Source: Fluviicola taffensis DSM 16823
Lineage (GTDB): Bacteria > Bacteroidota > Bacteroidia > Flavobacteriales_D > Crocinitomicaceae
DNA: 64,000 nucleotides
Reading direction: 5' to 3'
Assembly: GCF_000194605.1 (NCBI RefSeq)
Contig: NC_015321.1
Span: forward strand, 3,844,001 to 3,908,000
A program made the translations under genes and the position numbers. This document shows, piece after piece, positions 6,303 through 34,748 of the stretch (position 1 is the stretch's first letter; each line of letters starts with the position of its first letter). The notes beneath the pieces are model-generated. The model did no database searches. It was not told the origin of the DNA and saw nothing but the letters and a program-made list of their open reading frames with translations.

Positions 6303-7874
6303 ATGAAATTTATTAAAACACTTCTATTTAGTTGTTTGTCAATAAGCAGTGTGATTGCTCAAAAAGACACCGATATCAATCGTAAATTTGATAGTATTTA
6401 TTTTGCAACAGCAGTAAATACTGCTGCGGGAGACATCAATAAGGCGATCAGGATTGCAGATTCATTGCATAAGCATTCAAAATTGGCTATTCATCAATTG
6501 AAAGCTTTAATGCTTTCTTCCTCTTTATTTCAGCAAAAAGGAGATATTAAAAAATCGGTTCAATATGCAGTAAAGGCAGATTCTATTGCTGTCAAGCACA
6601 AGAATTATGATTGGGAAGCAAGGATAGCTGGCTTCTTATCTACGCAATACCGAATAATGGGATTGTATGAAGAAGGCGAGGAATACCTTGAAAAAGGTAA
6701 AAATGTCAGTCATAAAATTGAAAATGAGCAGATGAAGAAGCTTTATCTTGGAATGATTTATCAGGAAACAGCTTATTATGAGATTGAATACGAGCAGTAT
6801 AAAAAGGCATATAAAGCAGCCAAGAGTGCAGATGATTATTTTAATCAATTGGTTTACAGTGAACAAGACCGGGATTACTTTTTGGCTACCAATGAGCAGC
6901 TTCTCGGACGTGTTTGTATCGGCTTAAATAAATGGGATGAAGCTTCCGAACATTATAACAAAGCGCTCGGTAAACTGACAAAAGTGACTCAGGAAAATGC
7001 CATGCTAAGTGGATTCATTTACAGTGGATTGGGAAGAGTTCATCTGGAGAAGAAGGAGATGACCATTGCATTTGAAAATTTACTGAAAGCAGAGGAAATT
7101 GTTGAAAACTCAGATTATTTGGAACTAAAAATTGAAGTATACAAAACATTGGCCGATTATTATCAGCTTTCAAAAGACATTGTAAAGTATGCGAAATATA
7201 ATGACAAGTATGTTGAAGCGCTTGCTCTAAGCGAAAAAAAGAAGAAAGAATCGATTACCGATTTTGTTAATACTACCAAATCAAAAGGAAAAATACTTGC
7301 ACAGAATCGAAATGTGTTGTTGATTGTATCCATTGTACTGAGTATTTTAATTGTTCTTACTTTTATCTGGCAAAGAAGAAGTCGGAAACATGAGCGCGAA
7401 CGTTTCAGAGAAGTGATGAGTAGAATGAGACAAGCTCAATTCGAAAAAGAGCAGGAGCAAACCGTAATTGCTGTTTCAGAAAGGAAAGATCCCAATCGAA
7501 AAATCATGTCAGATGCTATTGAAGCAAAGATTTTAAAGGACTTGAAAGATTTTGAAAGAGGAAATAAATATACTGATAAACAGATTTCACTTCCAATTCT
7601 TGCAGGAATGCTCAAGACCAATACGAAATATCTTTCCCATGTATTGAACACCTATTTGAATAAGGATTTTAATACCTATATCAATGAGCTCCGTATCAAA
7701 TACATTATTGAAAAAATTGAGCAGGACGAAAGGTTCAAAAATTATAAACTAAGTGTTCTTGCAGAAGAATGTGGCTTCTCATCCCATAGTAAATTCTCAG
7801 CTGTTTTTAAAGCTATAACAGGTTTTTCACCATCTACTTTTTTAGCATACCTGGAAGAAAGTAAATCAGCTTAG
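6303..7874 (+). CDS. TPR-repeat membrane regulator with C-terminal AraC-type HTH
   Basis: A 523-residue one-piece regulator. A GTG nine codons upstream is also possible, but the ATG at 6303 starts directly with a signal-like helix (MKFIKTLLFSCLSISSVIAQ). Residues about 40-330 are helical TPR-like repeats, predicted periplasmic. One membrane segment follows (VLLIVSIVLSILIVLTFIW, about 345-365), then a charged linker and a cytoplasmic AraC helix-turn-helix in the last 100 residues (SVLAEECGFSSHSKFSAVFKA). There is no kinase or receiver domain, so signalling must be by conformational change rather than phosphotransfer. Proteins of this layout are frequent in Flavobacteria. It lies between two T9SS cargo genes and may regulate them, which is inference from position. 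Confidence 0.85.
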   Translation: MKFIKTLLFSCLSISSVIAQKDTDINRKFDSIYFATAVNTAAGDINKAIRIADSLHKHSKLAIHQLKALMLSSSLFQQKGDIKKSVQYAVKADSIAVKHKNYDWEARIAGFLSTQYRIMGLYEEGEEYLEKGKNVSHKIENEQMKKLYLGMIYQETAYYEIEYEQYKKAYKAAKSADDYFNQLVYSEQDRDYFLATNEQLLGRVCIGLNKWDEASEHYNKALGKLTKVTQENAMLSGFIYSGLGRVHLEKKEMTIAFENLLKAEEIVENSDYLELKIEVYKTLADYYQLSKDIVKYAKYNDKYVEALALSEKKKKESITDFVNTTKSKGKILAQNRNVLLIVSIVLSILIVLTFIWQRRSRKHERERFREVMSRMRQAQFEKEQEQTVIAVSERKDPNRKIMSDAIEAKILKDLKDFERGNKYTDKQISLPILAGMLKTNTKYLSHVLNTYLNKDFNTYINELRIKYIIEKIEQDERFKNYKLSVLAEECGFSSHSKFSAVFKAITGFSPSTFLAYLEESKSA

Positions 7875-27172: not shown

Positions 27173-27355
27173 TTACAGCTTGCTGATTGGCTTATAAAAA
27201 TTCACTACTCTGACTTGGCTTGATTCATAAAGACTAACTTGAAACAGCGTTTTATACTGCATTTTAGGAGTTGCATTTTTACTCTTTTTCATCTTCTTTA
27301 ATGTCAAAGGAGAGGACTTGTCATCTTTAATAATTTGACTAATTGATTTTTTCAT
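27173..27355 (-). CDS. 60-residue basic peptide between the two maturase genes
   Basis: The frame overlaps the end of the ATP-grasp gene by 17 bp and stops 3 bp before the SPASM gene, as expected of a translationally coupled operon member. The product is Lys- and Ser-rich (MKKSISQIIKDDKSSPLTLK) with a more hydrophobic, aromatic C-terminal third (LFQVSLYESSQVRVV). It has no signal peptide, Gly-Gly site or cysteine. It could be a second substrate, a leader-binding helper, or a chance frame held open by the tight spacing. I do not recognise it. Confidence 0.5.
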   Translation of the reverse strand: MKKSISQIIKDDKSSPLTLKKMKKSKNATPKMQYKTLFQVSLYESSQVRVVNFYKPISKL

Positions 27356-28322
27356 TTGATACTAAATTAGTAACTACTTCTCGCTCTAAATAATAATTAC
27401 ACGGACCAGAAACCATTCCAAACTGTCCCACAGGATTAACTTCCAAGAAATATAATTCTCCTGTTTCACTTTTGAGAAAGTCGATTGAACCAGAATTAAG
27501 ATTGAGCGACTTCATCAGTTTTTTTAATTTTAGCAAATCCTCTTTTTTTAATTCAAATGGAACTGTTCTGTTAGGATGCACTGTATTGTATCTCCTAAAA
27601 TCTTCTGAAGTTTGTTTATCTTCTTGTGAAAAAATAGCCATACTAAAGGCCTTTTCATTTAGAAAAAAGGTGCGTATCTCAAAACTCTTTTCTATGCGTT
27701 CTTGCAACAAAAATGGGAAAACCTCACTTTCTTTATTGAAATGCTTAGATTTCACCTCTGTGGTATACTGCATGTAATGGTTTGAATTATGTCTTAACAT
27801 AACCATATTATAAATGGGCTTGGTAATGTATCTTTTACCTGTTTTTTTGATGATTTTTATTGCTTCTTCATTCGATGTCAAAAGGTGTGAATCAGGAATT
27901 TTAAAACCACTTTCCTGTGCAAGAAAAAGAGTTTCCAGTTTATCGTTGATTGCGGTGTTCAAATTGTTTACACCTTTCATGTATTTAAAAAGCGCATGAA
28001 AAAAACCCGAATTAAATGAAATGATTTCTTGTTGTGCAAATTCCTCGAGCTCTGGAGTTAATGTACTAAACTTATAATTACTCAATGTACTAGCATTCGA
28101 TCTTCTATAAATATATCCCACGACATCCTTTTCTGTAACAATACTTCGTTTATGCTTTATCTGAAAAGAAAAAATGTTATTCGCAATGGAATAATTTAGC
28201 AAAACTTTCGACAAATTACGAGTGTCAATAATGATCGGTGTAACATTCAGGCTTATACACCAATCGACCATTCTATGAGTAGTAATGTCATCCTCAATTG
28301 AGAAAAATAGTAAGTATTTCAT
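27339..28322 (-). CDS. ATP-grasp peptide maturase (grasp-with-spasm / graspetide type)
   Basis: A 327-residue ATP-grasp enzyme. The middle part has nucleotide-contact elements (ESGFKIPDSHLLTSN, KRYITKP, LLQERIEKSFEIRTFF). The C-terminal LYFLEVNPVGQFGMV is the Mg/ATP-binding motif shared with microviridin-type ligases such as MvdC/MvdD. Enzymes of this kind join acidic side chains of a precursor peptide to Ser, Thr or Lys, making esters or amides. The ATG overlaps the stop of the upstream lipoprotein-like gene by 4 bp, and the SPASM maturase lies downstream. The cytoplasmic substrate is probably the 77-residue peptide encoded at 29290-29523. Confidence 0.87.
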   Translation of the reverse strand: MKYLLFFSIEDDITTHRMVDWCISLNVTPIIIDTRNLSKVLLNYSIANNIFSFQIKHKRSIVTEKDVVGYIYRRSNASTLSNYKFSTLTPELEEFAQQEIISFNSGFFHALFKYMKGVNNLNTAINDKLETLFLAQESGFKIPDSHLLTSNEEAIKIIKKTGKRYITKPIYNMVMLRHNSNHYMQYTTEVKSKHFNKESEVFPFLLQERIEKSFEIRTFFLNEKAFSMAIFSQEDKQTSEDFRRYNTVHPNRTVPFELKKEDLLKLKKLMKSLNLNSGSIDFLKSETGELYFLEVNPVGQFGMVSGPCNYYLEREVVTNLVSNEKIN

Positions 28323-29257
28323 AATGTAAATGGCTTTAAACCAAATAATAATCTATTTATATTAATTTGTTTTAATTCTTTTTTTGAAAGACTATTAATT
28401 GGGTTACCGCTTTGTGCTTTGGTTGTCATTAAAAATTGTAAAGGCAGATTATTTGATTCCAAATAACGGTCAACAATTTGGACATAGTACTCACTGGGTA
28501 AATTATTTTTTTTTACCTGATTTAAGTAATCTTCAATCAGTCTTTTTTTCTTTTCGTTGTTGTCCAAATGTTGGATAATAGTAAACATCATGTGTATATA
28601 TTCTAAATTTAACTCTCGATAGCCAGGGACATATCCAATAGTATCCATACTTCGATAGAATAATTCACTGCTGATTTCATCTAAGGGGTTTTGCAATCGA
28701 AATATGCTGTCTGAAAATTTCTCAAATTCATTTCGTGTAATTTCATTTTTTCTGTATTTCAGATAAACACTTCCAATCTTTATTCGGTGTTTTTGCTCAA
28801 GAGAATAGCACGAATCTAATATATTCAGAATCTTTGAATCAGATGATTTAGAACTGGTTGTGATTTGTTTCATAAAATCAGTCATTTCATTTTGAAAATG
28901 AGTGTATTTTCTGGAAGTTAAATTTTTTAATGAAAAACTGTCTTGAAGATTTACTCCTAAAAGAAGCTTTTCAAATAACGGTTGGTCATTGTTTTTATCC
29001 GCATGGTAAATTGCAAGGTTTCTGTAATATCCTTTATTGATGGCTTTATTTTCAATTAGAAGAATACAATTAATTGATTTTAAGTAGTTTGTTTCTTTTT
29101 CTTTATCATATCTGGAATAATTTCGAATCATATTCTTTTGACAAGAAAATAGTATTGAAAATACGATAATGATTACCAATACATGAAATGAATAATACTT
29201 AAACACCGGATAAAAAAAAGTTTTTATCCGGTGTTTTTTAAAAAAATCAGTTCTCAT
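28319..29257 (-). CDS. RiPP-operon lipoprotein or membrane-anchored protein, DUF6624-like C-terminus
   Basis: A 312-residue product if started at the ATG at 29257. An ATG 25 codons upstream would overlap the precursor gene. A basic N-terminus (MRTDFFKKHRIKTFF) precedes a hydrophobic helix ending in FSILFSC, a possible lipobox. The rest is helical and hydrophilic. The final 100 residues (FTIIQHLDNNEKKK ... YYVQIVDRYL ... INRLLFGLKPF) recall DUF6624 proteins, a low-confidence match. It overlaps the ATP-grasp gene by 4 bp, so it belongs to the RiPP operon. An immunity or export-related role is possible, but nothing in the sequence proves it. The first codons overlie a strong hairpin. Confidence 0.7.
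   Translation of the reverse strand: MRTDFFKKHRIKTFFYPVFKYYSFHVLVIIIVFSILFSCQKNMIRNYSRYDKEKETNYLKSINCILLIENKAINKGYYRNLAIYHADKNNDQPLFEKLLLGVNLQDSFSLKNLTSRKYTHFQNEMTDFMKQITTSSKSSDSKILNILDSCYSLEQKHRIKIGSVYLKYRKNEITRNEFEKFSDSIFRLQNPLDEISSELFYRSMDTIGYVPGYRELNLEYIHMMFTIIQHLDNNEKKKRLIEDYLNQVKKNNLPSEYYVQIVDRYLESNNLPLQFLMTTKAQSGNPINSLSKKELKQININRLLFGLKPFTL
29201..29236. other. Perfect 16-bp inverted repeat between precursor and maturase genes
   Basis: AAACACCGGATAAAAA and its exact reverse complement are separated by AAAG. It lies 54 bp after the precursor gene, inside codons 8-19 of the next gene. On the - strand RNA no T run follows, so it is more likely an attenuator, processing site or translation block than a plain terminator. 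On the + strand six T follow, as in a terminator for transcripts from the other side. Confidence 0.85.
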
Positions 29258-29289
29258 ACTAGAGTTGATTTCACCAAATTTCGGGTTGT

Positions 29290-29523
29290 TTATCTTTCTA
29301 AAGCAGAAATACTTCTTGCCAATGCATCGCACTTATCTGGATCAATTGTACACTGAGTTTCTGTTTCTATAAAGGTATTCGGATCACCTGCACTATCAAC
29401 GAATCCTGATTCACATGGTCCTGCGCCAGTTTCTCCTCCTGTTGCCATTCCTGCAAAGATTTTGTTCGTTTCAATTACATTTTCCTGAAAACGCTTAAAA
29501 GTGTCATTTAGATTTGATTTCAT
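29290..29523 (-). CDS. Candidate RiPP precursor peptide
   Basis: A 77-residue peptide. Residues 1-27 are a helical leader (MKSNLNDTFKRFQENVIETN) ending in GMATGG, which resembles the Gly-Gly leader ends of Bacteroidota natural-product precursors. The remainder (31-77) is rich in Glu/Asp (10), Thr/Ser and Gly, with cysteines at 37, 58 and 65. These acid and hydroxyl side chains are the type used by ATP-grasp ligases for ester or amide links. It is the first gene of an operon that encodes an ATP-grasp and a SPASM maturase. Family and cleavage site are inferred, not proven. Confidence 0.75.
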   Translation of the reverse strand: MKSNLNDTFKRFQENVIETNKIFAGMATGGETGAGPCESGFVDSAGDPNTFIETETQCTIDPDKCDALARSISALER

Positions 29524-30113
29524 TTTGATGGTCTTTTATTTTTTCCTACTCTAAATATGGTTTTCGGATTCCCCATTTTAATTTTTGTTAACGTTTGAAA
29601 GATATAAATATTTTAATAAAAATGTTGTCTGAGGTTTATTTTTTTTTTCAACAATGATCTCTAAACCATGTTTTTAGGATATATTCTGATTTGAAATTCC
29701 TCTAATTTTAGTTGGTTTTTTATCAAGTCAAAATATTTTTCTTTTTATTTTTCTGACTCCAGATGTATTCCGCTTTCTAGGATGGAATACAACAATCTAA
29801 TTAATAGTAATCTGGATTTTATTTAATGGATTAAATGCTTTTATAGAGCATAGCTTGTTAAGTTTCAGTATTATAAAAAGCACTGAAATACAACTCCTTT
29901 TGAGTAAACCGGAATTGAACCGCTATGAATTTTCGGAAACCGAATGAAAATGGCTAGTTGCGGAAGATTTGGGTTTGCCACGCTCCTCGGCCTTCCTTCA
30001 AAGGAGGAGACTAAATTCGTTCTTCGAACCGGGATTTCATACTCAGTTCTCACACTTACTCTGAAAAGAAAAAAGCCCGGAAAGTGTGAGAGCGAGTACA
30101 GAGTGACAAAAAT
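29524..30113. other. Gene-poor region upstream of the RiPP locus, possible element scar
   Basis: Very AT-rich DNA (29524-29870) must hold the RiPP promoter, but I see only a one-mismatch -7 box (TATCTTTC on the - strand). From about 29890 to 30110 the base composition rises and short inverted repeats appear, such as CTCACACTT with AAGTGTGAG around 30040-30090. The short open frames here have no coding character. CTTTTGAGT at 29897 repeats the bases at the ssrA 3' end. Confidence 0.45.
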
Positions 30114-30143
30114 AAAAAAGCATCACTCACGTAATGCTTTTTT
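30114..30143 (-). terminator. Terminator of the accessory operon
   Basis: AAAAAAGCAT pairs with ATGCTTTTTT across a 10-nt loop. It lies 57 bp beyond the stop of the nuclease-like gene on the - strand and is symmetrical, so it may act on both strands. Confidence 0.8.
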
Positions 30144-30200
30144 ATTTTTGTGGAGAAGAGCGAACGGAAATGGAACCAGAAACAATAATTATTTGATGTA

Positions 30201-31025
30201 TTAATGATGAAATTTTGGATTCACGGTTTCTAGTTTTGACTCAGCTAAAATGAAGTTGGATTCTAAAAATGAAATCAAATTGCTGTCAGCGATTTTCGTA
30301 GGTGAGTAATGTGCAATATTGCAAGGGTATTTCCATTCACCATCTTTATCTTCATAGTAATCAAAAGATATAAAAACTATTGCTCCCAAAGATTTCAAAT
30401 TCTTTGGTGAGTTCTTTTTAAAACCTTCATTTATATTTTCTAGTATCGAAAATAAATATTGCTTGGATATTTCCAAATCGAGTTTCTTAGCATGAAAAAT
30501 CGGATTAGTAATATCTACAAATAAAACAGTGGATGAATTCATATAATTTACCACCAATTTTTCTCTTACAGAATTTCTTATCTTTTGAAAAATTTGCTTT
30601 TCAGAAGGTATAGCTGTAAAACTAAATAACGCGCTAGTACATTCTACAAATATTTCACCATTGTAATCAATTGAAAAATCAGGCTTCTCTCGATTTTTAA
30701 AAGTGATATTTTTCTGAACTAAAGTCCAATGAAAGTATAATTCAAATAGATCTCCGTAAAATGAGACATTTTTAGTATTCTTAATGAGACGATTTTTCCA
30801 TAATTCAAAAGCTGAATTGTCTATCAGGTTTAGCTCATATAAATAGTCTATTGGTCCAAATAGGCTATTATATAGAAGATAATTAAATTCTTCAGATAAA
30901 GGATCAAGAGCTAGCAATTCATTATAGCTATTGAAAAAAGGGTGGTCCGAGTGTTTTGAATCTGATAGATCAAAACCTAATTGTTCAACATAGATTTTTT
31001 TTATGTGATCTAAACTCTGGCTCAT
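30201..31025 (-). CDS. PD-(D/E)XK nuclease-like protein of unknown function
   Basis: A 274-residue cytoplasmic protein. I chose the ATG at 31025; a TTG at 31046 is an alternative. The core (GDLFELYFHWTLVQ, KPDFSIDYNGEIFVECTSA) has the order Glu, Pro-Asp, Glu-x-x expected of a PD-(D/E)XK restriction-endonuclease-like fold. The usual final Lys is replaced by Thr (ECT), so it may be a variant or inactive nuclease. A longer helical region follows. The gene lies 28 bp downstream of the HEPN-like gene and ends the three-gene set. No named family is recognised; a nucleic-acid-targeting role is inferred from motif and context. Confidence 0.62.
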   Translation of the reverse strand: MSQSLDHIKKIYVEQLGFDLSDSKHSDHPFFNSYNELLALDPLSEEFNYLLYNSLFGPIDYLYELNLIDNSAFELWKNRLIKNTKNVSFYGDLFELYFHWTLVQKNITFKNREKPDFSIDYNGEIFVECTSALFSFTAIPSEKQIFQKIRNSVREKLVVNYMNSSTVLFVDITNPIFHAKKLDLEISKQYLFSILENINEGFKKNSPKNLKSLGAIVFISFDYYEDKDGEWKYPCNIAHYSPTKIADSNLISFLESNFILAESKLETVNPKFHH

Positions 31026-31053
31026 TTTCTTCGTTTTACTTTTCAAAAAAGTC

Positions 31054-31947
31054 TTACAGTTTTTTTAATTGATCTTCGATGTTATCAATAAATAACTGAA
31101 TATCTACTATAAGATCAGTAATGATATCATTGTCAACCATTATCTGATCTTTTTCTTTAGTCCAGCCATTACGATGTACTAAATCATGACGCTTAGTAAC
31201 TGCCTTAGAAGGAACAGCAATACTACCAAAATCAACTCCTAATGTATCGAGATACATTCCCTTCACCTTAGCTAAATTGTGAAATATGATTTCTAACATT
31301 GATTGTCGACATCGGAGTTTAATTTTTTCAAATTCATCATATAATTTATTTAACGAGATTGTTTCATTTTTGAAATCTTTGAATGTAGCAACAAATCTTT
31401 TGAGGAAGATATCCGAATTTAATGTGGTATTGATGAATGCATCTGATAAATAGGTTTCCATGGATGAAATTACACCGATATAAATTTGTCGTCTTAATGC
31501 TTTATCAGCTCGATTATTGGCCAGTTTGATAGCATTTAGCTCCCTTAAGCTTCTAATTTCTGCACAAAAGGTTTCATAGAATTCGGTATTAGATACTATA
31601 GCATCATATTGATCATCAATAAGTGCTTCGTATTGTTGTTCATTAAAAGAACCGTCTGTCCCTAATTTAGTAATGCGATAATCGGATCCGATTCCATCTA
31701 TATAGCCATAACCTTGATAAGGTGTGATAAAAATTTTACAATAATACTCTTCACCACATTTACAAAACATCATTCCTTCGGATGTCAATTCGTCACCTAC
31801 AATATTTTCTTGATCAGGAATATCTAATTCAATTTGTTGGCGTTCGAAACATTTAATACAATCAAAGCTTAAAAATAAATTTTCTAATGCCGGGTCGAAA
31901 TCAAACTCTCTCATAGGGAATAAAATATAATCAGAAACATAAGACAA
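31054..31947 (-). CDS. HEPN-like protein with zinc-finger-like N-terminus
   Basis: A 297-residue protein. The listed start is a TTG 4 bp after the previous stop; the ATG at 31914 is an alternative. The N-terminal part has CIKC and MFCKCGEEYYC, a possible zinc ribbon. The remaining 200 residues are helical and contain RHDLVHRNGW near residue 255, an R-x4-H motif followed by RNG, as in RiboL-PSP-HEPN-type RNases. HEPN domains of this kind cut RNA in toxin and phage-defence systems. Its neighbours are a membrane protein and a nuclease-like protein in a tight operon. It may equally be a non-catalytic HEPN sensor. The assignment rests on a short motif. Confidence 0.62.
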   Translation of the reverse strand: MSYVSDYILFPMREFDFDPALENLFLSFDCIKCFERQQIELDIPDQENIVGDELTSEGMMFCKCGEEYYCKIFITPYQGYGYIDGIGSDYRITKLGTDGSFNEQQYEALIDDQYDAIVSNTEFYETFCAEIRSLRELNAIKLANNRADKALRRQIYIGVISSMETYLSDAFINTTLNSDIFLKRFVATFKDFKNETISLNKLYDEFEKIKLRCRQSMLEIIFHNLAKVKGMYLDTLGVDFGSIAVPSKAVTKRHDLVHRNGWTKEKDQIMVDNDIITDLIVDIQLFIDNIEDQLKKL

Positions 31948-31951
31948 GAAT

Positions 31952-32590
31952 TTAACGACTCTTACCCGACAATAAATAAATTGACTTTTCTAATAATGCG
32001 TAAAATTTATACCCAACTTCCGATGTTTGATACTTAATATCCATAACATCAATTTGTAGGTTCTTTGTCTCAATCTTTTCCAAAAGACCATAACCAACTA
32101 ATTTTGGAGCGAGAACTCCATATAAATACCCGCCATCGTTCAGCTCATCATTCAAGGTAACACCTTTATTAAAAAAAGGAGAATACACATGAAACATATT
32201 CAATAAATCTTCCTGCGGAGGTTCTTGCCCTGACCAATTCATTCCATTTGTACCAAATGGAAGATTCTGATTTAATAAAATATGATATAATTCTCCGAAC
32301 TTGTAATTGCCAACTTGTTCATCCCAAATAGGATGTTTATTTCTCTTAAAAAATCTAATCAACCACTTTGTTAAAAAAAACAGACCTATAATTGACAAAA
32401 AAACAAAGACAGGTAGTTCGTACTTTAGGCATGAGACGATGAAAGTATAAACCTCCTGTGCTGAGTAATTACTATATTTAGTCCATAATGTAGCTACTAA
32501 CAATATTATACCAGCTGAAATAACTTTACTCCAAACTGGATCTTTCCATACTTTAACAATTACGTTCCAAATTCTTTCTGTTTTGCTCAT
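31952..32590 (-). CDS. Two-TM membrane protein with winged-helix-like tail, first gene of accessory operon
   Basis: A 212-residue protein. Two membrane segments (about 23-41 and 58-76: SAGIILLVATLW and LPVFVFLSIIGLFFL) are followed by a cytoplasmic domain of about 130 residues. Its end (LAPKLVGYGLLEKIE ... YQTSEVGYKFYALLEK) has the helix-wing alternation of a degenerate winged helix. It is translated just ahead of the HEPN-like gene (4-bp gap). Membrane proteins paired with HEPN or nuclease partners occur in phage-defence systems as effectors or anchors. I do not recognise this family. Confidence 0.65.
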   Translation of the reverse strand: MSKTERIWNVIVKVWKDPVWSKVISAGIILLVATLWTKYSNYSAQEVYTFIVSCLKYELPVFVFLSIIGLFFLTKWLIRFFKRNKHPIWDEQVGNYKFGELYHILLNQNLPFGTNGMNWSGQEPPQEDLLNMFHVYSPFFNKGVTLNDELNDGGYLYGVLAPKLVGYGLLEKIETKNLQIDVMDIKYQTSEVGYKFYALLEKSIYLLSGKSR

Positions 32591-32710
32591 TATAAGATTC
32601 TTTGATAGCGATTATTTATGGGTATATCTACTATTGATAAATAGTCTATTAAACACCATCTCAATATGGACTAAATTTAAGCAAATAGTTTTGTTGCCGT
32701 AAATTTAGAA

Positions 32711-33247
32711 TTATTTTACAGTGTCGGGGCTTAAAATATCAGGATGATGTTGAATATGTATTTCTTGTACTTTCTTAACATTGGGATGAATATCAGGTGC
32801 TGAAACAGGGGAATTAAACATCATTAGAATATGCCAGACAGCGAAAAAGATAACCCCAGAAAAGAAAGTAAAAATGCAATCATTAAAAGCACGGTCAATT
32901 TTCTTCGAGATTCCATTTAATATTTCAGAATATTTATCATTGACAAATTTCAAGTCTTCACTATTTTCTAAAAGATTATATTCTTTTACCAGATCATATT
33001 GAGCGTTACTAGTTGAAAGTTGTGTGAATGTGTGAATGTTAAATCTGAATCCAGAATAGATACAAAGACTCCATAAAATAACTGCACCCATTAACCAGAA
33101 ATCACTTCCTTCTGGTTTTTTTCCAAAGGATTTATTAACTGCAAATCCAATTGCTGCAACGGCTAAAGCAATAATATAATAGATAAATTTACTTGTACCA
33201 TCATTCAAACGTCTTTGTACATCTAATTGTAAGTCATTGTCTTTCAT
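32711..33247 (-). CDS. Small membrane protein of unknown function
   Basis: A 178-residue protein with three hydrophobic segments (about 23-39, 49-67 and 120-142: IYYIIALAVAAIGFAV, WLMGAVILWSLCIYSGF, CIFTFFSGVIFFAVWHILMMF). A soluble, charged stretch of about 50 residues separates the second and third. The C-terminus (IHPNVKKVQEIHIQHHPDIL) is His-rich. It resembles SLATT-type membrane modules only in general layout. It is separated from the three-gene set by 120 bp, so it may be transcribed separately. Confidence 0.6.
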   Translation of the reverse strand: MKDNDLQLDVQRRLNDGTSKFIYYIIALAVAAIGFAVNKSFGKKPEGSDFWLMGAVILWSLCIYSGFRFNIHTFTQLSTSNAQYDLVKEYNLLENSEDLKFVNDKYSEILNGISKKIDRAFNDCIFTFFSGVIFFAVWHILMMFNSPVSAPDIHPNVKKVQEIHIQHHPDILSPDTVK

Positions 33248-33377
33248 ATCATAAAAATATTCAATTTTCTTCTTTACAGCCTTAAATTATCCCGAACAAA
33301 CCAAATCATTATAAAAACAGAAGAGCTATAACTGTGCAACTTTATTAAGGTCTACCAACTCTTAGAATAGACTCATA

Positions 33378-34184
33378 TTAATCAACCCACGAAAATTCTT
33401 TAGCTTCTTTTTTACATCGTTCTAGGCTTTTGTTATAAATAGTGTCTTCCACCCAATACGATACACCACCATGGTGGGAACATGCGCCTGAACCAGTTGC
33501 AAAGCTACCTGTTCCATCGCTACAAACTGCACCTACTCTATAGGTTGTTATCGATTCGTGATAATATTTTTTTGCTAAAACATCAGGATTGGTAAACTTA
33601 TCATTTACCCAATTCATAAATAACTGACCTGAAAAAATCCAACTGAAAATCGTAACAAGAATAGTTATTGATAAGAATTGAGTAAATGAGCTGCTCTCCC
33701 AAATCCTCCACTTTGATATTGAAAAAAAAATCTTTTTATCTTTTTGAAATCTTCGAGAGATGTAAGAGAATGCCTTAGTAAATAAGTATATTTCTATTGC
33801 TAAGAACCCAAATAGAAACAAGCTTAGAAGTAGAAAAACTGAATATTCGCAATCCAGCATTACTCCACAGAGCTTGACCAAGGCTACAATTAGAATTAAG
33901 AATACTAAAATCAATAAAATACACCTAAGAATTTTCTTTTTAGAGAAAAAATGCCTTTTAACTAATTGCTCACCGTCTTTATCATTTACTCCAATGTTCT
34001 TTTTTCGTTGAGTTTTGTTTATAAGGATAATTAGAAACGTCGGAAGTAAGATCAATAGAGCATAGCGAATCCAGTCAATCACGATTATCTTTTTTATCAA
34101 ATCAGAAAATAGCATCGACATTAAAATGATACAAGCGACTACATAGAACCAAGTGTCGTTAGATTCAAAACGATTTTTTTTCAT
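33378..34184 (-). CDS. Membrane protein with DUF3761-like C-terminal domain
   Basis: A 268-residue protein with five or so hydrophobic segments in the first 200 residues, with Lys-rich loops between them. The end (VGAVCSDGTGSFATGSGACSHHGG) matches the cysteine- and His-rich signature of DUF3761 (C...DGT.S.......CS.HGG), a small extracytoplasmic module of unknown function, usually found alone after a signal peptide. The fusion with several membrane helices is unusual. It lies between ssrA and the accessory genes, 130 bp upstream of the 178-residue membrane protein. Confidence 0.65.
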   Translation of the reverse strand: MKKNRFESNDTWFYVVACIILMSMLFSDLIKKIIVIDWIRYALLILLPTFLIILINKTQRKKNIGVNDKDGEQLVKRHFFSKKKILRCILLILVFLILIVALVKLCGVMLDCEYSVFLLLSLFLFGFLAIEIYLFTKAFSYISRRFQKDKKIFFSISKWRIWESSSFTQFLSITILVTIFSWIFSGQLFMNWVNDKFTNPDVLAKKYYHESITTYRVGAVCSDGTGSFATGSGACSHHGGVSYWVEDTIYNKSLERCKKEAKEFSWVD

Positions 34185-34310
34185 AATGTTTACTTAACCT
34201 AGAGACTAAGAGCCTTAAAATAGAAGAAATATTTTAAGGTCTTCTAATTTTTGGTGAAAAACTCTGGTCATTACTGGGGTTTCTGACAGTAAAACTGACA
34301 GTTTAAAATA

Positions 34311-34344
34311 AAAAAGCCTGTAAATCAAATACTTACAGGCTTTT
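34311..34344 (-). terminator. Terminator of ssrA
   Basis: On the - strand, AAAAGCCTGTAA pairs with TTACAGGCTTTT and a T run follows, directly after the tRNA-like end of the tmRNA. Confidence 0.88.
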
Positions 34345-34347
34345 GAG

Positions 34348-34748
34348 TGGAGTCGGAGGGGTTCGAACCCTCGTCCAAACAATGGTTCCGAATGTCTTCT
34401 ACATGCTTATTTTTTGATTAGTTTTCGAGTTGAATTCGGACAAAAACACCCAAGATCCAACCTTAGCTTCTGAGATCTCACACCTTGCGCGAAGCTCGCT
34501 CAGTGCCAGATTTTCTAAAATGATTCCCCTTGGCCTGCTGATCGAAAATCAGAATCGTGCAGAGGAGAAACTTGTCCGTGTACTAAACTTCCACTGGATT
34601 AAGCCTTATTTACCTAGTAAATTAAGCAGCAAGTGCGTATGACGTATTGTCAATTATGGTTCGCAGCAAGATATTAAAGAGCTTCACTACAACGCTCTGC
34701 ATGCTTCCCACCGAAATCTCGATCGCTGTCAAATCCAATGTCGACCCC
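34348..34748 (-). ncRNA. ssrA: tmRNA
   Basis: A 401-nt transfer-messenger RNA on the - strand. The 5' end GGGGTCG pairs with CGACTCC near the 3' end to make the acceptor stem. The next bases (ACATTGGATTTGACAGCG) are the conserved 5' tRNA-like sequence. The 3' half ends GGACGAGGGTTCGAACCCC, a T arm and loop. The reading frame in the middle ends with NTSYALAA and TAA, matching the usual ALAA degradation tag; its first codon is not certain. No CCA is encoded after the discriminator A at 34348. It works with SmpB, encoded about 3 kb away, to release stalled ribosomes. Confidence 0.95.

Follow-up and report, generated by a model that had tools for sequence, protein, structure and literature searches.

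What kind of unit is formed by three tightly spaced genes that lie near ssrA, the transfer-messenger RNA (tmRNA) gene, in Fluviicola taffensis? The genes belong to a window of 64,000 nucleotides (nt), contig positions 3844001-3908000 of the 4,633,577-bp genome; the coordinates of features below count from the first letter of this window. In our set, genomes carry G numbers (the window's own being G000) and loci L numbers. A first-pass annotation, made from the sequence, had proposed an undescribed defense-type operon of a membrane protein (P1), a HEPN-like RNase (P2) and a nuclease-like protein (P3). The reading that we prefer, and to which we give about an even chance of being correct, is that the trio is the distal part of a five-gene cargo bounded by the 3' end of ssrA on one side and by a repeat on the other, that this cargo arrived as a cassette, and that P2 is likely an RNase.

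34347-34748, minus strand, as the five open reading frames (ORFs) below: ssrA (tmRNA), called by ARAGORN and by Rfam RF00023.
33378-34184, minus strand: P0b, 268 amino acids (aa), several hydrophobic stretches.
32711-33247, minus strand: P0a, 178 aa, membrane protein.
31952-32590, minus strand: P1, 212 aa, from the ORF list; two-transmembrane (2TM) module (W.DPVWSKVI) followed by a soluble tail.
31054-31947, minus strand: P2, 297 aa as listed; zinc-ribbon-like beta domain (residues 12-95) and helical HEPN part (103-296).
30201-31046, minus strand: P3, 281 aa, with a PD...VECT motif; orphan in the collections searched.
30150-34346, minus strand: inserted stretch with the five ORFs, 4,197 bp, delimited by comparing its junctions with 12 other genomes of the genus.
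30152-30177, minus strand: 26-nt boundary motif GGTTCCATTTCCGTTCGCTCTTCTCC, similar to the T-arm and 3' end of a tRNA and followed by AC; distal boundary of the stretch.
29875-30153, minus strand: tRNA-associated repeat copy of about 280 bp with a terminator-like hairpin, a second hairpin and T-arm-like segments.
29866-29893, minus strand: 3' end of the repeat, TTG...TAATACTG, putatively promoter-like; it faces genes for a ribosomally synthesized and post-translationally modified peptide (RiPP).

The three ORFs lie where they were first annotated, on the minus strand, with 4 nt between P1 and P2 and 7 nt between P2 and P3, a spacing that suggests joint expression. Their extent as a unit had to be revised: P0a and P0b occupy the gap between P1 and the tmRNA, so that the same-strand gene set does not end at 32590 and the trio is the distal part of a five-ORF stretch. 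None of the five ORFs exceeds a Pfam cut-off (the end of P0b is DUF3761-like at 25.8 bits, under the required 29), and the models of PADLOC 2.0.0 returned no family at E<=1 for any of them, in line with the earlier remark that the set matches no named system. G007 has a relative of P0a (27% identical, E 1e-8) that precedes another copy of the repeat (L258), and between the two lies an ORF (602-1111) that looks like a four-helix bundle when read by eye.

The evidence for an insertion comes from the junctions in the congeners. Five of the 12 other genomes (G008, G001, G013, G009 and G005) have a repeat whose start is at the CCAC of the tmRNA. In the window, where the proximal boundary is the tmRNA 3' end ...GACTCCAC, 4,197 bp lie between the tmRNA CCAC and the next CCAC, after which the repeat follows. 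Since the repeat sits directly at the tmRNA in these five congeners, the state of the window looks like an insertion, and the same comparison suggests insertion here rather than loss elsewhere. The G+C content of the stretch is 30.9% as compared with 36.7% for the window, and 6% of equal-sized windows are as low. The stretch seems to be inserted at ssrA, which had been pointed out as a common integration site, with gene and cargo on the same strand. Among 13 genomes the genes 3' of the tmRNA differ, G003 and G008 sharing the first ones. At the corresponding site behind ssrA, G006 (L177) has an Mrr-like nuclease (Mrr_cat match), and there are also a GIY-YIG-like ORF and a Cas9-Cas1-Cas2-like set, named by reading the translations.

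The 3' ends of tRNA and tmRNA genes are classic integration sites, and the stretch, placed exactly at the 3' end of ssrA, resembles the genomic islands found at such sites. This likeness is the starting point of the main rival explanation, in which integrase-bearing elements entered at ssrA and tRNA genes and then lost their integrases, the repeats are terminator-associated or of the miniature inverted-repeat transposable element (MITE) type and spread or recombine by homology, and there is no dedicated cassette system. We consider decayed islands rather unlikely. The inserted stretch differs from tRNA-site islands in that it carries no integrase and in that different tRNA types share one boundary motif instead of each having its own 3' end copied.

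The repeat is found mainly in the genus Fluviicola. It was matched in 13 of 14 genus genomes (none in G011), with up to 22 matches per genome, and a consensus query against 120 genomes of the family, with few candidates scored per genome, matched 20 at E<=1e-6, of which 11 belong to the genus and nine do not. The 17 copies that were aligned have in common the terminator-like hairpin, the second hairpin, the T-arm-like segments and the promoter-like end. Two copies fold better than their shuffles (z -4.43 and -2.86), and a search of selected stretches with Rfam assigned the repeat to no family at the gathering score. The position of the repeat was assessed on 46 distinct forward starts, taken from stretches picked by repeat matches (a few from other genera of the family), after matches of fewer than 56 columns or short of the repeat start had been dropped. 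Twenty-five of them lie within 8 nt of the 3' end of a called tRNA or tmRNA on the same strand, where the share expected by chance is about 0.0007, and a further six come after the boundary motif. The anchoring genes are varied (Arg 7, Met 5, tmRNA 5, Leu 3, Ala 2, Phe 1, Val 1, Lys 1). The terminator-like hairpin behind the tRNA is a point in favor of decayed islands, since part of the tRNA association may then be that of a shared terminator; the repeat, however, reaches well past this hairpin.

The second recurring element is the 26-nt motif, which is exact in the window. At up to three mismatches, 19 copies are found in 10 of the 14 genomes, and the reversed control gave none. Most of these copies come shortly after a gene: in 17 cases a same-strand ORF ends no more than 200 nt before the motif. 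Of the other two, one overlaps the end of an ORF, while the second, which has three mismatches, does neither. Nine run straight into a repeat start. Ten of the 19 are preceded by a same-strand tRNA or tmRNA at a distance of up to about 5 kb, with one tRNA-Met serving two of them, and for an eleventh, in G009, the tmRNA is just beyond that distance. That a single motif ends unrelated cargo in many genomes speaks against decayed islands.

The cargo itself is diverse. From 17 of the 19 motif sites, 23 ORFs were listed, some of them one or two units up the array and bounded by repeats instead; 20 of the 23 were compared with Pfam, and 10 of these 20 with PADLOC, where seven gave matches with E<1e-6. 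The cargo closed by the motif includes Mrr_cat, AAA_13, AAA_14 with DUF4143, DUF2971, nSTAND1, HARE-HTH, DUF6000, DUF1963 and 8xMP proteins, a secreted beta-propeller, several ORFs without a match and, in G004, a Fic gene followed by a HEPN gene. The cargo between repeats comprises a TIR_2 gene (in the G008 array), an ORF that weakly matches GldB, and a guanylate cyclase. Ends similar to the promoter-like end of the repeat lie upstream of several cargo ORFs. Different cargo can occupy the same place, as at the tRNA-Met site behind one 345-aa gene, which holds different cargo in G003, G013 and G007. Conversely, one type of cargo occurs at two tRNA types: a DUF6000 gene follows tRNA-Val in G013, and G009 has one in its tmRNA array. 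The two DUF6000 units share 80% DNA identity from within the repeat to just past the motif, where the identity stops, a pattern that decayed islands do not readily explain.

Several observations weigh against arrival of the inserted stretch as one of these cassettes. At E<=1, Pfam found an integrase domain in none of its five ORFs. Seven of the 12 other genus genomes have no repeat match directly behind the tmRNA (G003 has a hairpin there that is similar without being the same). Exact agreement between the tmRNA end and the motif is limited to about CTCCAC, the motif ending in TCTCCAC and the tmRNA in GACTCCAC, and the case for a classical tRNA direct repeat is therefore weak. The stretch's own left end carries no repeat and, beyond the window itself, was matched only weakly over about 31 nt. 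Elsewhere, 15 of the 46 repeat starts have neither a called tRNA nor the motif before them, several of these looking like decayed tRNA ends. For eight of the 19 copies of the motif, the nearest 5 kb or so holds no tRNA on the same strand, and around one exact copy (L148) there is no tRNA in 18 kb. The secreted beta-propeller and the guanylate cyclase do not look like defense genes. Finally, an integron integrase (TIGR02249) over the curated cut-off is found in none of the 14 genomes.

The last result also led us to reject the identification of these arrays as integrons. The likeness to integron gene cassettes lies in the short cargo units, the recurring site at the 3' end of the cargo, the arrays and the promoter-like end before the cargo; the Fluviicola units differ in having no integron integrase over the cut-off, in their frequent position at tRNA or tmRNA ends and in a motif that resembles a tRNA T-arm. 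Weaker matches to tyrosine recombinases occur in all 14 genomes, and likewise in 14 of 14 control genomes. In G012 (L303, about 6600-6750) a 42-residue remnant of a tyrosine recombinase C-terminus lies directly behind a repeat copy and T-arm-like sequence. It is 71% identical over 42 residues to a recombinase of G013, and 84% and 86% identical, over 37 residues each, to those of G000 and G005. The remnant counts in favor of decayed islands, and as a pointer to the recombinase it is a lead and not proof. In the stretches examined, the recombinase genes related to the remnant are not beside a tRNA or repeat, and among the recombinase stretches only that of G011 gave a repeat match, of 17 nt.

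Returning to arrival as a cassette, the stretch may have been gained by recombination at tRNA or tmRNA 3' ends, with the recombinase supplied in trans and the far end of the cassette mimicking a tRNA 3' end (GGTTC...CCAC). In a broader form, which we put forward only tentatively, Fluviicola would possess a cassette-capture system at its tRNA and tmRNA genes, in which a recombinase encoded elsewhere would insert units behind CCAC, each made of the repeat with its terminator-like and promoter-like parts, one to a few cargo genes and the tRNA-end-mimicking motif. A candidate for this enzyme is a tyrosine recombinase, similar to integron integrases, that some of the genomes encode; in F. taffensis a recombinase gene lies at contig positions 4320327-4321439. 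Such a system would resemble an integron in its working but not be one, and would gather defense genes among others, including the HEPN gene of the window. Among the papers listed by our literature searches, none on a cassette system of this kind was recognized from its title and the beginning of its abstract. If the proposal is true, motif and repeat would mark recently acquired, often defense-type genes across the genus, and would represent a second route, beside integrons, to gene-cassette arrays. It would also explain the lack of conserved partners described below, as the inherited unit would be the cassette and not the operon.

The cargo gene for which a function can best be proposed is P2. 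The earlier description of a zinc-ribbon and HEPN-like protein with an R-x4-H motif agrees with our results: the motif (RHDLVH at residue 253) is intact, and the cysteines (Cys30/33 and Cys62/64) all lie inside the beta domain. The start is probably the ATG of residue 12 (window position 31914), since the 78%-identical relative in G004, a congener, begins there. Relatives of P2 are found on plasmids (62 records at E<=0.01) and in phages (seven records at E<=0.1, two of them being one phage), and a scan of genome contigs with the pattern [IKV]RHD[CL]VHR[NA] kept 80 loci. The R-x4-H motif is invariant across a 56-row alignment, most rows of which had been recruited by the scan that used this very motif as its pattern. 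In a 51-row alignment, from which plasmid and phage rows were left out, 24 of the 51 family members match PF18735 (HEPN_RiboL-PSP) at E<=0.01, the best at 1.6e-10. Some of the 51 have different heads (HNH in two, Mrr_N in two, HEPN_RES_NTD1 in four). In L031 and L033 the P2 relative has, where P2 has its zinc ribbon, an N-terminus that by eye resembles an HNH endonuclease.

The AlphaFold model of P2 has a mean predicted local distance difference test (pLDDT) score of 90.1, with residues 12-95 beta and 103-296 helical. Foldseek with this model gave no match in the PDB at E<=0.001 and, in BFVD, one uncharacterized phage protein (6.5e-4), and assignment by fold search was dropped. The profile of the family gave chance-level matches only among PDB sequences, and for P2 alone no Pfam model reached E<=0.01. 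The Foldseek and Pfam negatives count against our preferred reading. By motif and homologues P2 is classified as a HEPN-family protein, probably a new member of the known RiboL-PSP type. According to Anantharaman et al. (2013, PMC3710099), RiboL-PSP-HEPN proteins keep their motif, share an operon with ParB and are distantly related to AbiF and AbiD. P2 resembles them in its C-terminal helical domain with R-x4-H, and differs in its sub-threshold score and its zinc-ribbon-like beta head. With PrrC, RloC and other HEPN nucleases, which the same paper describes as effectors in conflict loci, often near Fic/Doc-like genes, P2 has the HEPN effector type in common, but no ATPase domain was matched in it. 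A HEPN protein in an integron cassette is also mentioned there (PDB 3jrt; PMC3710099). Most likely, P2 would act as a stand-alone or loosely partnered RNase of the abortive-infection or toxin-like kind.

Could P2 instead be the effector of a dedicated three-component defense, with P1 as a membrane sensor or anchor, P2 as the RNA-cutting enzyme and P3 as a nuclease-derived partner? The close spacing of the three genes, with the joint expression that it suggests, argues for such a system, and at one point a link between P1 and P2 is favored elsewhere. The sole credible relative of P1 lies on the Emticicia plasmid pEMTOL01 (L010, 4463-5519), where this P1-like 2TM gene overlaps by 8 nt a 182-aa HEPN-like gene with an RNYLAH motif (PF18735 at E 4.7e-4, under the curated cut-off); the pair adjoins genes for an AbiLi-like ATPase and RloB, with kwaB farther on. 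The wider comparison points the other way. Eighty-seven loci with a HEPN match were gathered, of which L007 and L008 are the window itself, while L003 and L013 are apparently one contig. Against the ORFs of the non-self HEPN loci, several of which are short and whose flanks extend to about 6 kb at most, neither P1 nor P3 gave a match; P1 matched one further locus, L010, which had been included as that of its relative. Among 79 HEPN loci scored on genome contigs, five had the gene at an edge, and 54 of the 74 scorable HEPN genes have no same-strand neighbor of at least 100 aa within 30 nt. In G004 the 78%-identical relative comes after the Fic gene and stops 9 nt short of the boundary motif; at the DNA level the window and G004 are alike over the HEPN gene and, as a match apart, over the motif, but not over P3, which lies between them in the window. 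Because P1 and P3 were found at none of the other HEPN loci compared, the naming of the three genes as one system was rejected, and a conserved three-gene defense operon is not supported; we hold a three-component defense to be improbable.

For P1, the two transmembrane segments that had been predicted correspond to hydrophobic stretches at about residues 19-37 and 47-78. The P1 peptide was found in four viral-contig proteins with unrelated remainders. Its codon pattern occurs in eight viral stretches: three encode N-terminal 2TM modules (L295-L297), in one (L301) the peptide is part of a hydrophobic C-terminus, and the remaining four are probably chance matches. A match in G118 was set aside as chance; it sits in a long polytopic membrane ORF. 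Within the cargo, P1 is probably a membrane tether or regulator of P2.

The PD-(D/E)XK-like motif ascribed to P3 is indeed present (PDF at 122, VECT at 134), with a Thr at the position of the catalytic Lys, and P3 has no Pfam match. A single-sequence structure model reached a pLDDT of 40.6 and was unusable, and with no homologues for an alignment the identification of P3 as a nuclease by structure was dropped. No homologue was found in 299 genomes of the order except the window's own, and no credible one in plasmids, viral contigs, genome contigs, phages or PDB sequences, in profile-free scans that reach close relatives only. A scan of 395 genomes across the phylum yielded weak matches to parts of P3 in 13 others (E 0.006-0.09), which are likely chance. 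The nuclease label rests on a motif that lacks its Lys, and P3 may be a cargo-specific accessory protein with a putative, unproven nuclease fold.

An orphan such as P3, and the arrays that include cargo unlike defense genes, also invite the explanation that the genes of the window are hitchhikers, without a role in defense and kept by chance in a variable locus. The intact HEPN motif of P2 and the occurrence of its relatives on plasmids and in phages argue against it, and we assign this explanation only a very small likelihood. For P2 as cassette-borne cargo, we propose a role in defense against phages, in which the predicted RNase may be coupled to the membrane through P1.

Beyond the distal boundary and the repeat copy, the window continues with a grasp-with-spasm type RiPP locus (27339-29523, minus strand), in which TIGR04192 is over its cut-off for 27339-28322 and a small peptide ORF lies at 29290-29523 (minus strand). 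Just upstream of the peptide ORF, at 29543-29577 on the minus strand, is a DUF805b RNA motif (RF02914, over the gathering score).

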